From contig CALUWL010000012.1 in assembly GCA_944324445.1 (NCBI GenBank), forward strand, positions 1 through 35,143: 35,143 nucleotides of DNA, written 5' to 3'. The position numbers were made by a program, and so were the translations under genes. The DNA comes from Candidatus Gastranaerophilales bacterium (GTDB taxonomy: Bacteria; Cyanobacteriota; Vampirovibrionia; Gastranaerophilales; Gastranaerophilaceae). Positions 10,003 through 15,722 of this stretch are shown piece by piece. The notes below the pieces were generated by a model. That model had not been told where the DNA came from. It was given only the letters and a program-made list of their open reading frames with translations, and ran no database searches. Numbering within the stretch: the first letter of the stretch is position 1; the number at the start of each line of letters is the position of its first letter.

Positions 10003-11325
10003 ATGGAATACCTACATCAAATTGTTTCCAATAATGCAATTTTAACTTCCGCAATAATTTTATTGGTTGCTTATGTTTTTATTGCTTGGGAAAAAATTCC
10101 AAAAGTTGTTATTGCTCTTTTGGGAGGTTCGCTGACTTTATTTTTAGGTTTACTTGCAACCGAAAAAACGCATGACAATCTTGCGTCTTACTTTGTTTCT
10201 TTCATTGATTTCAATGTAATATTTTTACTTGTTTCAATGATGATAATCGTTCATATTGCATCAAAATCAGGCATGTTTACTTGGCTTGCAAATGAAATTT
10301 TAAAAAAGACAAAAGGTAAACCAAAACTTGTTTTGGCAGCTTTAGCGGTATTCACTGCTGTTGCATCAGCTTTTTTGGATAACGTTACAACAGTTATTCT
10401 TGTTATGCCGATTACGTTTGCCGCTTGTAAATTACTTGATATCAGCCCGATTCCTTTTTTGATTAGTGAAATTTTCTGTTCAAATATCGGTGGTACTGCA
10501 ACTTTAATCGGTGATCCGCCGAATATTATTATAGGTTCTGCTGCAAATTTCAGTTTTATGGATTTTATAAGAGAATTAACAGGTGTTGTGCTTGTTATTA
10601 TGTTTGTTGTAATAGCTTATTTGATTTTTATTTATAGAAAAGATCTTAAATCTTCACCTGAAAAAATGGAATTGGTTTCAAAGATTGATAATTCTACATC
10701 GATCACTGATATGAATTTGGCTATTCGCTCGGGCGTTGTGCTTTTACTTGTAATATTAGGATTTATATCTCATGATATATCTCATATACCTACATTCTTA
10801 ATTGCTATGATAGGAGCAAGTGTTCTATTGATATTTGAAAAACCTGCAGAAGTGTTGGTTGAAGTTGAATGGAATACAATATTTTTCTTTGTAGGTTTGT
10901 TTATAATTATAGGTGGTTTGGAACAATCCGGCGGTATTGCTTTAATGGCAAAATGGTTGTTGGAAGTTACTCAAGGTTCGCAAACGGCAACATCTATGAT
11001 AATTCTTTGGGCATCAGGAATTTTATCAGGAATTATTGATAATATTCCATATACTGCTACAATGGCGCCAATGATTGCAACAATTGAACAAACAATGGGT
11101 CATGCTTATGCTCATCCTTTGTGGTGGTCTTTAGCGCTTGGTGCATGCCTTGGTGGAAATATGACTATAATCGGTGCGGCAGCTAACGTTATAGTTTCTG
11201 AAAATGCTGCAAAAGCTGGCTGTCCGATTTCATTTATGAAATTTTTAAAATATGGTATAATCGTTACTATGATATCTTTATTGATATCTACTGTATACAT
11301 ATATTTTAGATTTTTAGTTCATTAA
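10003..11325 (+). CDS. ArsB/NhaD-type ion transporter (IT superfamily)
   Basis: A 440-residue inner-membrane transporter with about 11-12 helices. It has the duplicated ion-transporter architecture: FLDNVTT (124-130) and [15 protein letters not shown] (161-175) in the first half, with matching [12 protein letters not shown] and [13 protein letters not shown] in the second. These motifs mark the ArsB/P-protein/NhaD group, which moves arsenite, sodium or organic anions. No ars genes are nearby, so the substrate is open. A strong AGAGGAG ribosome site precedes the ATG. The stop overlaps the ruvB start by one base (TAATG), suggesting a two-gene unit. Confidence 0.88.
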
Positions 11326-12389
11326 TGATTATTCAAGATAACGAAAATAAAAAAACAAATAAAGCACTCAAGCAGTCTAATCCTGACTTGAGTGCTTCTT
11401 GTAATCAAAATGAAGAGGGATATGAAAAAAATATTCGTCCTTTGAGTTTTGATGATTATATAGGTCAAACTTCCATTAAAGAAACTTTAAAAATTTCAAT
11501 TGAAGCAAGTAAAAAAAGAAATGTTCATCTTGATCATTTATTGTTCTATGGCCCTCCGGGACTTGGAAAAACAACACTTGCAAGCATTATAGCGCATGAA
11601 TTAAATACTAATATAAAAATTACTTCCGCTCCATCTATTGAACGCCCGAGAGACATAATCGGGATTTTAATGCAGATGAAAGAAGGAGAGGTTCTTTTTA
11701 TTGATGAAATTCACAGGTTAAATAAAATAGCTGAAGAAATTTTATATCCTGCTATGGAAGATTTTGTTATAGACCTAACAACAGGAAAAAGCCAAAGTGT
11801 TAAAACTGTAAGAATTCCAATTCAAAAATTTACTTTAATTGGGGCAACAACTAAAGCGGGTGCTCTATCCGGTCCTTTGAGAGATAGATTTGGTATAATT
11901 CATAGGTTAGAATTTTATACGGCGGAAGAGCTGAGTCAAATTGTAAAAAGAACAGCTAAAATATTAGAATTTAAAATTGATGCCGATGGCGCTATGGAAA
12001 TTGCTAAGCGTTCTCGCTGTACTCCTCGTATTGCAAATCGTTTGGTTAAAAGAAGTGCTGATTGGGCTATTGTTAAAGGTGATGGGGTCATAACAAAAGA
12101 AGTTGCAAAGGCTGCACTAACTGCTCTTGATATAGATGAAATTGGACTTGATGTAACAGATAGAGCCTTGCTTAAACTTATGATAAATTCTTTTGAAGGC
12201 GGGCCCGTTGGAATTGAAACGCTAGCGGTTGCTTTAGGGGAAGATATTAGAACAATTGAAGATGTTTATGAACCTTATTTAATTCAGCAGGGTTTAATTG
12301 CAAGAACCCCCAGAGGAAGAAAAGCAACTAAATTTGCTTATGAACATTTAGGTTATAAGATAGAAACCTCGCAGCTGGGTTTATTTTGA
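11325..12389 (+). CDS. ruvB: Holliday junction branch-migration helicase RuvB
   Basis: A 354-residue AAA+ ATPase that drives Holliday-junction branch migration with RuvA. Seen: the [12 protein letters not shown]-terminus (38-48), Walker [10 protein letters not shown] (76-84), Walker B LFIDEIH (124-130), sensor segment [18 protein letters not shown] with the arginine finger, and the C-terminal winged helix ending [16 protein letters not shown]. Residues 1-35 are a polar extension before the usual start point and contain an 11-bp inverted repeat at DNA level. The ATG overlaps the transporter stop. No ruvA or ruvC is nearby. The 3' end overlaps the convergent gene by 9 nt. Confidence 0.96.
11362..11397 (+). 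repeat. Perfect 11-bp inverted repeat inside the ruvB start region
   Basis: AAGCACTCAAG (11362-11372) and CTTGAGTGCTT (11387-11397) are exact reverse complements with a 14-nt loop. The repeat falls in codons for the non-conserved RuvB N-terminal extension, 37 nt after the transporter stop. No T-tract follows, so it is not a classic terminator. Confidence 0.75.
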
Positions 12390-12749
12390 TTTTTTTATAA
12401 ATAATTTTTTAACTGCTTCAATTATATGCTTGGGATTGCCGCTTTTTGGGATAGTATTGTTTTCTGCGCAAGTATAAAGTAAAATTTGATTAATAACCCT
12501 ACTTGGGTTAATCGGGCTTCTAGATTTTATTTCAATAGCTTCGTTACCTATTTTAATTAAGATTCCTTCGCCGCCTCTATTTTTTAATCCTGATAAAATA
12601 ACTTCATCCGCTTTTAAAAGTGTAGACATCTGAGGGCATTCGACAATTGTTTTTGTTTTTTTGATAATGCTTTCTATGTCGCTTTGTTTTAGCGTTTTTG
12701 TTAAGCTCGGGTCTATTTTTAATTTTGCTTTAAAAGTTATGTCATTCAT
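12381..12749 (-). CDS. Small protein of unknown function
   Basis: A 122-residue soluble protein I do not recognise. It is lysine/isoleucine-rich and looks alpha/beta ([12 protein letters not shown] at the start, [21 protein letters not shown] in the middle), with two cysteines and no membrane segment. It is last in the leftward run behind the DUF374 gene, 21 nt after it. No ribosome site is visible; a TATAAT sits 3 nt before the ATG, too close for an ordinary leaderless start. Its 3' end overlaps the convergent ruvB end by 9 nt. An in-frame span with a single plausible start and no competing frame supports a real gene. Confidence 0.65.
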
Positions 12750-12770: not shown

Positions 12771-13451
12771 CTAATTTTTTTGCTTTAAGTATTTTTTATA
12801 ATTTTTCTTTAGATCTTCGTATAATTCTTTTAAATCGTTTTCGATTTTTAAGCGAATTATTTCAACTTCTTCTTTTGTTGGATTTTGAGGAACTTCAATC
12901 GGATTTCCGAACACCATAACAAGGTTTGTACCTATTAATGGGAATCTAAATTCATCCCACGAATTGAATTTTAAAAATCTTTTTTGAGGACTCCAATATA
13001 CAGCAGGAACTATGGGAACGTTTGCCATTTTAGCGATTTCAATTATTCCTTTTTTAACTACTCTGTTTGGACCTTTGGGGCCATCTATTGTTAAAGCTCC
13101 GTTTATGTCTTCATTTTGTATTCTTTTAATTAATTCAAGGCTTGCTTTTGTTCCGCCTCTTGTTTTGGAACCTCTAACGGTTTCAACTCCTACTGCGTTT
13201 GCAGCGCGAGATATGATTTCGCCATCTTGTGAGCTGGACACCATAATACAGGTTTTTCTATTTAGATTACAAGAAAAAACTCCGCATTGATGAGCATGCC
13301 ATAGGGCAAACATACATTTTTCTTTAGGATAATTTATGCATTTGCATTTGTAGAAAATTTTTTCCAAGCGAAATAAATTGACAACCAAAAAGCACATCAA
13401 TTCTGTTCCGTATTTTTTCTTTAATTGTTTGAATTTTTTTGCTAATTCCAA
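12771..13451 (-). CDS. DUF374 lysophospholipid acyltransferase-like protein
   Basis: A 226-residue member of the DUF374 group of the LPLAT superfamily. The acyltransferase H-x4-D-like pair is represented by ALWHAHQ (His52) and SSSQDGE (Asp76); the next motifs are TVRGSKTRGG (91-100) and TIDGPKGP (121-128). This group is linked to acylation of lipid A-like or other envelope lipids, but the substrate here is unknown. The start is TTG, chosen because TTAGGA lies just before it and the family N-terminus begins there. It follows the his fusion by 20 nt on the same strand. Confidence 0.85.
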   Translation of the reverse strand: MELAKKFKQLKKKYGTELMCFLVVNLFRLEKIFYKCKCINYPKEKCMFALWHAHQCGVFSCNLNRKTCIMVSSSQDGEIISRAANAVGVETVRGSKTRGGTKASLELIKRIQNEDINGALTIDGPKGPNRVVKKGIIEIAKMANVPIVPAVYWSPQKRFLKFNSWDEFRFPLIGTNLVMVFGNPIEVPQNPTKEEVEIIRLKIENDLKELYEDLKKNYKKYLKQKN

Positions 13452-13471
13452 TTTTCCTAACCTTTCAGAGT

Positions 13472-14704
13472 TTATTTTTTTGTTCTTGAAGTTAAATTGT
13501 TTCTAATATCATCGATTGTAACATTGTTTTTGGACATAAAAACAAATAAATGATACAACAGTTCGGCTCCTTCCCAAGCAAGCCCTTCGGTTTGTTCAAA
13601 ATTTACAGTTTCAAAAGCTTCTTCCATTATTTTTTTCTTTAACATGAAATCATCTTTAAATAATGTTGTAGTGTAGCTATTTTGAGGCATTTTTTCTTTT
13701 CTGTCTTCAATAAGTTCATATAATTCTTCAAATGTAAAATCTTTATCTTGAAAACAGCTAAATCTGTTAAGATGACAAGAGTTGCCCTTTTGTCTTACTG
13801 TAAATAATATTGCATCTCTATCGCAATCATATTTGGCATTTAGCAGTTCTTGGTAGTTGCCGTGTTTTTCACCCTTTGTTCTAAGAGCATTTCTTGAACG
13901 TGAAAAATAGGTGCAAATTCCTTCTTTGAATGATTTTTTAAGGGATTCTTGATTGCTGTATGCTAACATTATAACCTGTCTTGTCATTTTATCTTGAACA
14001 ATGGTTGGAATTAAACCGCCTTGTTTTTCAAAATCTAAACAAGCGCAAAAAGCGTCTTCAAGGGTTATTTTGCCTGTATAAATGCACATGCCCAGTTGTG
14101 AATTTATATTGTTTTTTTCAAGTTCAACTATTTCTTCAAGAGAAGAAATGCCGCCTGCTGCTGTTATAGGTTTTGACGTAGAAGATGCAATTTGTTTTAT
14201 AAAATTAATATCAGCTCCTTGCATCATGCCTTCTCTTTCAACTACTGTAAAAACAAAGCCTGAACAATAGTCTTCAAATCTTTTGACATAATCCATTGTT
14301 GAAAATTCACTAACTTCCATCCAGCCTTTTGTTGTTATTTTTCCATCTCTTGAATCAATTGCAACAAGAACTTTTGACTTTGGAAGTTTAGATAAAAAAT
14401 CTTCGCTTGCAGCTGTTCCTATGATTATTTTTTTAGCGCCCCATGAAAGAACTTTTTTGGCTTTTTCTATTGTCCTGATTCCGCCGCCAACTCTTGCAGG
14501 AGCAATTTTACAAATCTTTTTTATGAGTTCTTCGTTGTTTTTGCCTGTATTTAATGCGCAATCAAGGTCAATAACTGCGATTTCGCCAAAGCGGGAGTAA
14601 TATTTTGCAATATCTAAAACATCTTCTCTTTCTAAAACCTTGTTTTTGCCTTGTTGTAGTTGAACTGCTTTTCCGTCCATTAAATCAATGCTTGCTACAA
14701 TCAT
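13472..14704 (-). CDS. hisA-hisIE: HisA-HisI-HisE trifunctional histidine biosynthesis protein
   Basis: A 410-residue single frame joining three enzymes. Residues 1-~225 are HisA (ProFAR isomerase): Asp7 in IDLMDGK, VGGGIRT (72-78) and Asp117 in VAIDSRDGK. Residues ~228-325 are HisI (PRA-CH): LIPTIVQD, FSRSRNALRTKGEKHG, metal site DCDRD (292-296), and cysteines 293, 310 and 317 in CHLNRFSCF. Residues ~330-405 are HisE (PRA-PH): MEEAFE (360-365) and EGAELLYHL (378-386). HisE, HisI and HisA catalyse steps 2, 3 and 4 of the pathway, so one polypeptide would carry three consecutive reactions. All key residues appear intact. A good AGGAG site precedes the ATG. HisI-HisE fusions are common; addition of HisA at the N-terminus is unusual to my knowledge. 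No other his gene is in view. Confidence 0.93.
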   Translation of the reverse strand: MIVASIDLMDGKAVQLQQGKNKVLEREDVLDIAKYYSRFGEIAVIDLDCALNTGKNNEELIKKICKIAPARVGGGIRTIEKAKKVLSWGAKKIIIGTAASEDFLSKLPKSKVLVAIDSRDGKITTKGWMEVSEFSTMDYVKRFEDYCSGFVFTVVEREGMMQGADINFIKQIASSTSKPITAAGGISSLEEIVELEKNNINSQLGMCIYTGKITLEDAFCACLDFEKQGGLIPTIVQDKMTRQVIMLAYSNQESLKKSFKEGICTYFSRSRNALRTKGEKHGNYQELLNAKYDCDRDAILFTVRQKGNSCHLNRFSCFQDKDFTFEELYELIEDRKEKMPQNSYTTTLFKDDFMLKKKIMEEAFETVNFEQTEGLAWEGAELLYHLFVFMSKNNVTIDDIRNNLTSRTKK

Positions 14705-14714
14705 TTTATTACTC

Positions 14715-15722
14715 CTAATTTAAGATGTTATCTATACAATCCCAGTTGAATTTGCGGTAATCGTTGGTTTTGTTTTCTTTATTAAAAAATTCTTGAATTT
14801 TTTCTTCGGGTTCATTTTTTTTGTAGTTAAATATGTTAAAACTATCTATATTGAGTTCTTCAGTTATGGTTTCAATTTTTTTATCGTATATAAGTGCAAA
14901 AGTTTTTGTTTTTAGTGCATGAGATATTAATACCCCATGCAGCCTTGTTGATATCATATATTTTGCATTGTTTACAATTTCTATTGTTTTATCAATTGTT
15001 TGATTTGGAATGTATTTTGCTTCAATGCCTTTGTTATTAAGAATCTCAATAAAATCTTTGCATATTTTTTCATCTATTTCATTCTGAAAAGAAAAGACAC
15101 TTATTGTTTCATTTGTTTTAATTAATTTAATTGCATTAGCAAGGTCATCTAAAAAATTTTTATTTAGTCCTTTGAAATTTCTTAGTTGGATGATTATGCC
15201 TTTTTTATTTTGACATATTTCAATATCCTGCACAATTGAATATACAGGATCAGATACCAATTGCGCATTTAATTTCCAGTTTTTTAAAAGATTTAAGCTG
15301 TTATTATCTCTAACTGAGATAAAATCAGCGGTTTTTAGTATATTTTTTGTGATAAACGTTTGAATATTGCCTCTAATAGGTTCAATTCCTTGAGCAAAAA
15401 TAATTACCTTTTTGAAAAGTAATTTAGCAAGGATAATAATTGTTAAATAATAAAATAAACTAAAATTGCTTGTTTTATTTTGCAATAGACTGCCGCCACC
15501 TGATATAAGAACATCGCAATTAATTATTGCTTTTAGGATTTGGGGAATTTTTTTGTAATTATACGTTTTAACGTTGTATCTTTTTTTTACTTCATTTTTA
15601 TTGTTGCATAAAACTGAAACATCGTATCCCAGTTGTTTTAAGTGGTTTGAAAGAGCAAAAAATATTGCTTCATCCCCAAAATTATTGAAACCGATATAAC
15701 CCGATACCAATGCTCTTTTCAT
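14715..15722 (-). CDS. csaB: CsaB-type polysaccharide pyruvyl transferase
   Basis: A 335-residue cytoplasmic, GT-B-like pyruvyl transferase. Seen: SGYIGFNNFGDEAI at the N-terminus, LISGGGSLLQ (73-82), FAQGIEPI, ISVRDNNS, and the C-terminal RLHGVLISHALK motif typical of CsaB. CsaB adds pyruvate to an envelope polymer; in Bacillus, Negativicutes and cyanobacteria this makes the ligand for SLH-domain surface proteins. No SLH protein is in the window. The ATG has no visible ribosome site; a TATGAT lies 11 nt upstream, so its leader may be very short. It is divergent from the SDR gene and leads into the his fusion 10 nt downstream. Confidence 0.88.
   Translation of the reverse strand: MKRALVSGYIGFNNFGDEAIFFALSNHLKQLGYDVSVLCNNKNEVKKRYNVKTYNYKKIPQILKAIINCDVLISGGGSLLQNKTSNFSLFYYLTIIILAKLLFKKVIIFAQGIEPIRGNIQTFITKNILKTADFISVRDNNSLNLLKNWKLNAQLVSDPVYSIVQDIEICQNKKGIIIQLRNFKGLNKNFLDDLANAIKLIKTNETISVFSFQNEIDEKICKDFIEILNNKGIEAKYIPNQTIDKTIEIVNNAKYMISTRLHGVLISHALKTKTFALIYDKKIETITEELNIDSFNIFNYKKNEPEEKIQEFFNKENKTNDYRKFNWDCIDNILN

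Follow-up and report, generated by a model that had tools for sequence, protein, structure and literature searches.

Several histidine biosynthetic enzymes are multifunctional proteins that unite steps of the pathway, among them fungal HIS4 (HisIE joined to HisD), HIS7 and HisNB. Five his gene fusions were catalogued by Fani et al. (2007), none of which combines HisA with HisIE (PMC1963479). HisIE itself is represented by the structures of the Shigella protein (6j2l) and plant HISN2 (7bgm); HISN2 contacts the N9-phosphoribosyl group through its WTKGETS loop, whose Trp packs on the adenine, and uses Asp237 as a metal ligand, and although this enzyme is a fusion of HisE and HisI, its two active sites lie more than 40 Å apart with no tunnel between them (PMC8102479). 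A different fate of histidine genes is documented in the Actinomycetaceae, in which his or trp genes were lost differentially and dN/dS rose to 0.09-0.15 in the barrels PriA, SubTrpF and SubHisA2 (PMC5404923).

The window analysed here, a stretch of 35,143 nucleotides from the genome of a Candidatus Gastranaerophilales bacterium, a gut-dwelling relative of the Cyanobacteria, carries a single gene for HisA, HisI and HisE (Table 1), apparently a his gene fusion so far undescribed, which recurs across much of one bacterial class. Like HIS4, HIS7 and HisNB it is a multifunctional his protein drawn from several pathway steps, but unlike them it falls outside the published five. Our literature search found no report of a HisA+HisIE fusion, which agrees with the comment in the first-pass annotation that the arrangement is not a standard one; a search of the literature for histidine auxotrophy in Gastranaerophilales likewise found nothing relevant.

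Architecture of the fusion

The frame given in the ORF list coincides exactly with the gene in Table 1 and runs for 410 codons from an ATG to a stop. Three Pfam domains score above their gathering thresholds: His_biosynth (residues 1-214, 1.5e-48), PRA-CH (residues 246-319, 3.6e-27) and PRA-PH (residues 326-407, 1.9e-14). Full-length homologues in sister genomes are 94-96% identical to it. In an AlphaFold2 model built from an alignment of 50 sequences (pLDDT 91, pTM 0.88), residues 1-224 superpose on HisA/PriA (Z 32, rmsd 1.6 Å) and the remainder is matched by HisIE structures, so that the triple fusion reported at first pass is genuine. In the alignment the HisI part starts at LDFEK, the usual start of free HisIE, so that HisA passes into HisI almost without a linker.

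Table 1. Features of the fusion and its immediate surroundings, in window coordinates.
Feature	Position	Strand	Evidence
hisA-hisI-hisE fusion gene, 410 aa	13472..14704	-	ORF, Pfam domains, sister-genome homologues
HisA (beta-alpha)8 barrel, residues 1-221	14042..14704	-	Pfam, fold (Z 32), residue tally, alignment to 1qo2/4x2r/4axk
HisI (PR-AMP cyclohydrolase) domain, residues 222-322	13739..14041	-	Pfam, alignment, residue tally
HisI nucleotide-binding loop, residues 275-284 (W275R, T280K, S281H, T284Y in O1)	13853..13882	-	Residue tally
HisE (PR-ATP pyrophosphatase) domain, residues 323-410	13475..13738	-	Pfam, residue tally
HisE metal ligand, residue 381 (D381E in O1)	13562..13564	-	Residue tally, homology to Asp237 of HISN2
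CsaB-type polysaccharide pyruvyl transferase, upstream neighbour in conserved synteny, yardstick gene	14715..15722	-	Pfam, NCBI models, synteny
DUF374 protein, downstream neighbour in conserved synteny, yardstick gene	12771..13451	-	Pfam, synteny
20-nt gap, fusion stop to DUF374 start	13452..13471	-	Synteny

The C-terminal 190 residues have the domain order of HisIE and carry the protein past the cut-off of the NCBI HisIE equivalog NF002747 (195.7 against 187); what sets it apart from HisIE is the N-terminal barrel and, in the window's clade, changes to the HisI substrate loop and to one HisE ligand together with absence of the pathway. With HisA and PriA (1qo2, 3zs4, 5a5w) it shares a complete barrel (Z 32 to M. 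tuberculosis PriA), equivalents of D8, D127 and T164, and glycine-rich phosphate-binding motifs, but it differs from them in being fused to HisIE, in a family-wide Glu at the position of D169, and in falling below the NCBI HisA equivalog cut-offs (169.3 bits for TIGR00007, cut-off 228.95). The curated NCBI models would label the whole protein HisIE and overlook its HisA part, and automatic annotation of a genome carrying it would report hisA as missing.

Distribution and gene order

Mapped across the Vampirovibrionia, as the first-pass annotation had proposed, the fusion proved widespread: full-length copies occur in 64 of 240 genomes sampled from the class, spread over five families (f1, f2, f3, f4 and f9), and families f5-f7 of the same sample have HisA and HisI as separate, unfused proteins. 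In the window's own family 114 of 383 genomes gave a match, nearly all of them (about 110) with the full-length fusion. Several assembly projects contributed the 29 GTDB contigs in which the full-length frame also appears, and these belong to Gastranaerophilales, with animal gut samples as the source of several, or to uncultured bacteria; this contig scan detects close relatives only, and the genome counts cover the class. We conclude that the fusion is ancient. An error of sequencing or assembly joining hisA to hisIE, which the first-pass annotation had raised as a stop or start codon lost between them, found no support and has a negligible probability, given dozens of independent genomes, some with the fusion inside his clusters; recurrence of the full-length frame in both collections excludes a lost stop.

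In most carriers the fusion is the sole source of HisA, HisI and HisE and often stands beside hisD, and in HisD-positive members of the window's genus that keep it, no strong HisA-like match other than HisF accompanies it. Examples from f3 and f4, with partner genes named by eye, show a his cluster of the order hisG-hisC-hisB-hisH-hisF-[hisA-IE]-hisD. The usual order in the window's genus, with partners named in the same way, is csaB-[hisA-IE]-hisD-DUF374, the fusion and hisD overlapping or abutting. Two members of the family have, in place of the fusion, a compact his operon of canonical type in which hisA and hisIE are separate genes (L098, G253:C9, 6101-13091; L100, G237:C10, 866-7210), possibly a replacement by transfer.

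Loss of the histidine pathway around the fusion

Pathway loss was judged on four genes, HisG, HisD, HisB and HisF, by targeted searches of genomes that are all draft MAGs. None of the four was found in the window's genome (G000), where the PF00977 search matches the fusion and no HisF; both sister genomes and named control genomes gave hits in the same searches. The genus is represented by 28 genomes: an identical set of 14 contains HisD and HisG, nearly all of these 14 have HisF, and 13 of them have HisB. Seven others retain an intact fusion without any of these partners, and a further seven have neither fusion nor partner genes. A composite HisG+HisB+HisF query agrees with the single-gene absences.

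The seven orphaned fusions of the genus form two clades, O1 (G000, G167, G172, G185 and G249; assembly completeness 93-99%) and O2 (G206 and G248), and three genomes of another genus (O3: G175, G182 and G393) likewise carry the fusion with HisG, HisB, HisF and HisD all absent. A tree built from five flanking proteins places O2 beside a pathway-positive genome with 100% support, apart from O1; since O3 belongs to another genus, the fusion has been orphaned independently at least three times. The gap between the fusion and DUF374 is where hisD lies in pathway-positive relatives. The five O1 genomes all lack hisD at the locus and have junctions of similarly short length, so that by parsimony the gene was lost before they diverged. 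A single intact his gene is thus no proof of histidine prototrophy. With the pathway lost three times, and with pathway-positive sisters as controls, the orphaned fusion offers a natural experiment in the repurposing of an enzyme, and its retained activity and current role are therefore directly testable.

Two loci stand apart from these lineages. G430, in which HisB, HisF and HisD were not found, was not counted as a further orphan: its fusion lies next to a HisG that is short and divergent and to a purA-like gene (L129, 3830-8410), and every tested residue is intact. G246 has an in-frame stop in both the fusion and hisD (L093, G246:C117:9445-11918) and lacks HisB, possibly a pathway decaying now or the result of MAG errors.

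Active-site residues

The residue tally took as its reference set 49 further fusions, whose genomes contain HisD wherever its presence was examined, and the ten orphans were set against it. The catalytic residues tallied are invariant in the reference set except for T280 (48 of 49, with a single T280S), while altered catalytic residues occur in all ten orphans. The first-pass annotation had described all catalytic motifs of the three enzymes as present, and this holds for part of the protein only. The HisA site is intact (D7, D48, GGG73-75, R77, D117, W128 and T153): the catalytic D8, D127 and T164 of T. maritima HisA correspond to D7, D117 and T153, conserved in 49/49 HisD-positive relatives and in O1, and the beta-8 phosphate motif is present as GMCI/GMAL. 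At the position of D169 (D176 in Salmonella) the window protein has E158 instead of Asp, a change that is probably tolerated because Glu stands there in 49/49 HisD-positive fusions. HisI keeps its Zn ligands (C294, C310 and C317), the base H311, and D293, D295 and D297, and HisE keeps the metal ligands E361, E362, E365 and E378.

What departs from the expected motifs is the HisI substrate loop W-x-K-G-x-T-S and the last HisE ligand. Residues 275-284 read RTKGEKHGNY in O1, fixed in 5/5 genomes, against WTKGETSGNT, and the Trp and Ser of this loop are conserved in 49/49 HisD-positive relatives, the Thr in 48/49. In the HisE signature EExxE + ExxD all four Glu are retained and the last Asp is replaced by Glu in 5/5 O1 genomes. 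The orphaned lineages differ in which domains are broken. All three Zn cysteines of HisI, together with its base His, have been substituted in O2, where HisA and HisE remain intact at the residues tallied; O3 has lost two HisE glutamates and one HisI aspartate. One O3 fusion (G182, L099, 6667-7812, reverse strand) has a degenerate HisA barrel, but its frame of 381 codons is unbroken and the Zn cysteines of HisI are conserved, and in this genome HisI may be the part retained.

Purifying selection after pathway loss

Within O1 the pairwise dN of the fusion is 0.027-0.043, dS 1.05-1.47 and dN/dS 0.018-0.034, dS being near saturation so that the absolute ratios are uncertain. The five flanking genes gave dN/dS of about 0.02-0.17, higher than the fusion in nearly every pair. 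A maximum likelihood codon branch model agrees: on branches inside O1 the omega of the fusion is 0.008, compared with 0.037 for the fusion in the rest of the genus and 0.017-0.059 for the O1 flanking genes. A functionless gene would show dN close to dS, unlike the O1 fusion, which is under strong purifying selection after loss of its pathway. The stem of O1 is faster (omega 0.069, p = 0.005), and the ratio of fusion to flanking protein branch lengths is about 1.2 on the stem and about 0.25 on the tips. Since some flanking genes likewise give high and noisy stem values, and the acceleration is modest, a burst on the stem followed by constraint is suggestive only.

The closest precedent for the orphaned fusion is PriA of the Actinomycetaceae (PMC5404923), where a HisA-type barrel was also retained and altered after his gene loss. 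Unlike that case, O1 is without both the his and the trp pathway, and its dN/dS is low all the same.

Possible roles of the orphaned fusion

For pathway-positive relatives a trifunctional role is the obvious reading of the sequences: the fusion, as their only copy of these enzymes, would presumably convert PR-ATP through PR-AMP and ProFAR to PRFAR, and the ancestral fusion would have done the same. For the window itself, the first-pass idea of a protein working in histidine synthesis is unsupported, with four partner genes absent and the HisI and HisE sites altered, as is the suggested channelling of ProFAR from HisI to HisA; even in HISN2 the sites have no connecting tunnel (PMC8102479). The explanation we favour, and hold to be somewhat more likely than not, is that an ancient trifunctional fusion serving steps 2-4 of the pathway was co-opted in O1 after the pathway was lost. 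A new use is probable because the pathway is gone, the protein is held under strong selection and its active sites are altered.

Other accounts of the orphaned fusions have to be weighed against co-option. A serious rival, although we regard it as rather unlikely, is that the fusion was already moonlighting in its pathway-positive ancestor, as a nucleotide sensor, a scaffold or the catalyst of a side reaction, and has kept this role alone. Such a role would suit both the retention of the fusion in three independent lineages and the unusual Glu at the D169 position throughout the family, but the intact domains are not the same among the orphaned lineages, and seven members of the genus have lost the fusion entirely. 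Improbable, in our judgement, is a histidine pathway that is still complete, its missing genes lying on a plasmid or in a stretch that never enters MAGs. All the genomes are draft MAGs, and plasmids are often omitted from MAG bins; against this, all five O1 assemblies, which are of high completeness, lack the same four genes, no close match to the fusion was found in viral and plasmid collections, nor to hisD in the viral collection, and the O1 HisI loop and HisE ligand are altered. It is further disfavoured because O2, without any Zn ligand or general base in HisI, cannot have a working HisI.

We think it just as doubtful that the orphaned gene is a decaying relic of recent pathway loss whose frame is merely unbroken as yet. 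This description suits the O3 orphans (g14), whose branches are long and whose HisE and HisA have broken residues, and G246 with its in-frame stops, but it is disfavoured for O1, where the loss predates a divergence of dS > 1 and dN has since reached only 0.03-0.04. Use of the HisA barrel as a phosphoribosylanthranilate isomerase (TrpF), in the manner of PriA, has a precedent among actinobacterial HisA homologues (PMC5404923), and TrpF (PF00697) is absent from G000 and from 27 of the 28 genus genomes. TrpC (PF00218) is, however, absent as well, from G000 and from all genus genomes but one, and there is consequently no tryptophan pathway for the barrel to serve: a pathway lacking only TrpF was not what we found. 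We rejected this role as highly improbable, unless a non-homologous TrpC exists.

Under co-option, the O1 ancestor would have lost the rest of the histidine pathway and retained the fusion. The HisA barrel, with its full E158-type site, most likely would still perform an Amadori-type isomerisation or bind a ligand, perhaps a phosphoribosyl-amine-like substrate, and the nucleotide pocket of HisI and the metal site of HisE would have been retuned. We infer a new function with HisA chemistry as its core. That a trifunctional his enzyme has become a new enzyme, combining an unchanged HisA site, a re-specified HisI pocket and a modified HisE metal site, acting on a nucleotide or phosphoribosyl-amine under stronger constraint than its neighbours, and with pathway-free retention begun independently in the two other lineages, seems to us an evenly balanced proposition. 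Counting against co-option, the intact domain differs among the three orphaned lineages, and O3 has a broken HisE and, in one of its genomes, a broken HisA as well; the O3 orphans look more like decay.

Other features of the loci

Between DUF374 and ruvB the window encodes a 122-aa protein with no Pfam match (12381-12749, reverse strand), which occupies the same place in all five O1 genomes (43-59% conserved) and was not seen at that place in the other genus loci examined. A citrate/arsenite-type transporter at 10003-11325 (forward strand) has the magnetosome protein MamN as its best NCBIfam match; at 182 bits, against a cut-off of 500, assignment as MamN was rejected. In two pathway-positive members of the genus (L080, 500-2121; L081, 498-2127) hisG directly adjoins a mazG-like gene for a nucleoside triphosphate pyrophosphohydrolase.
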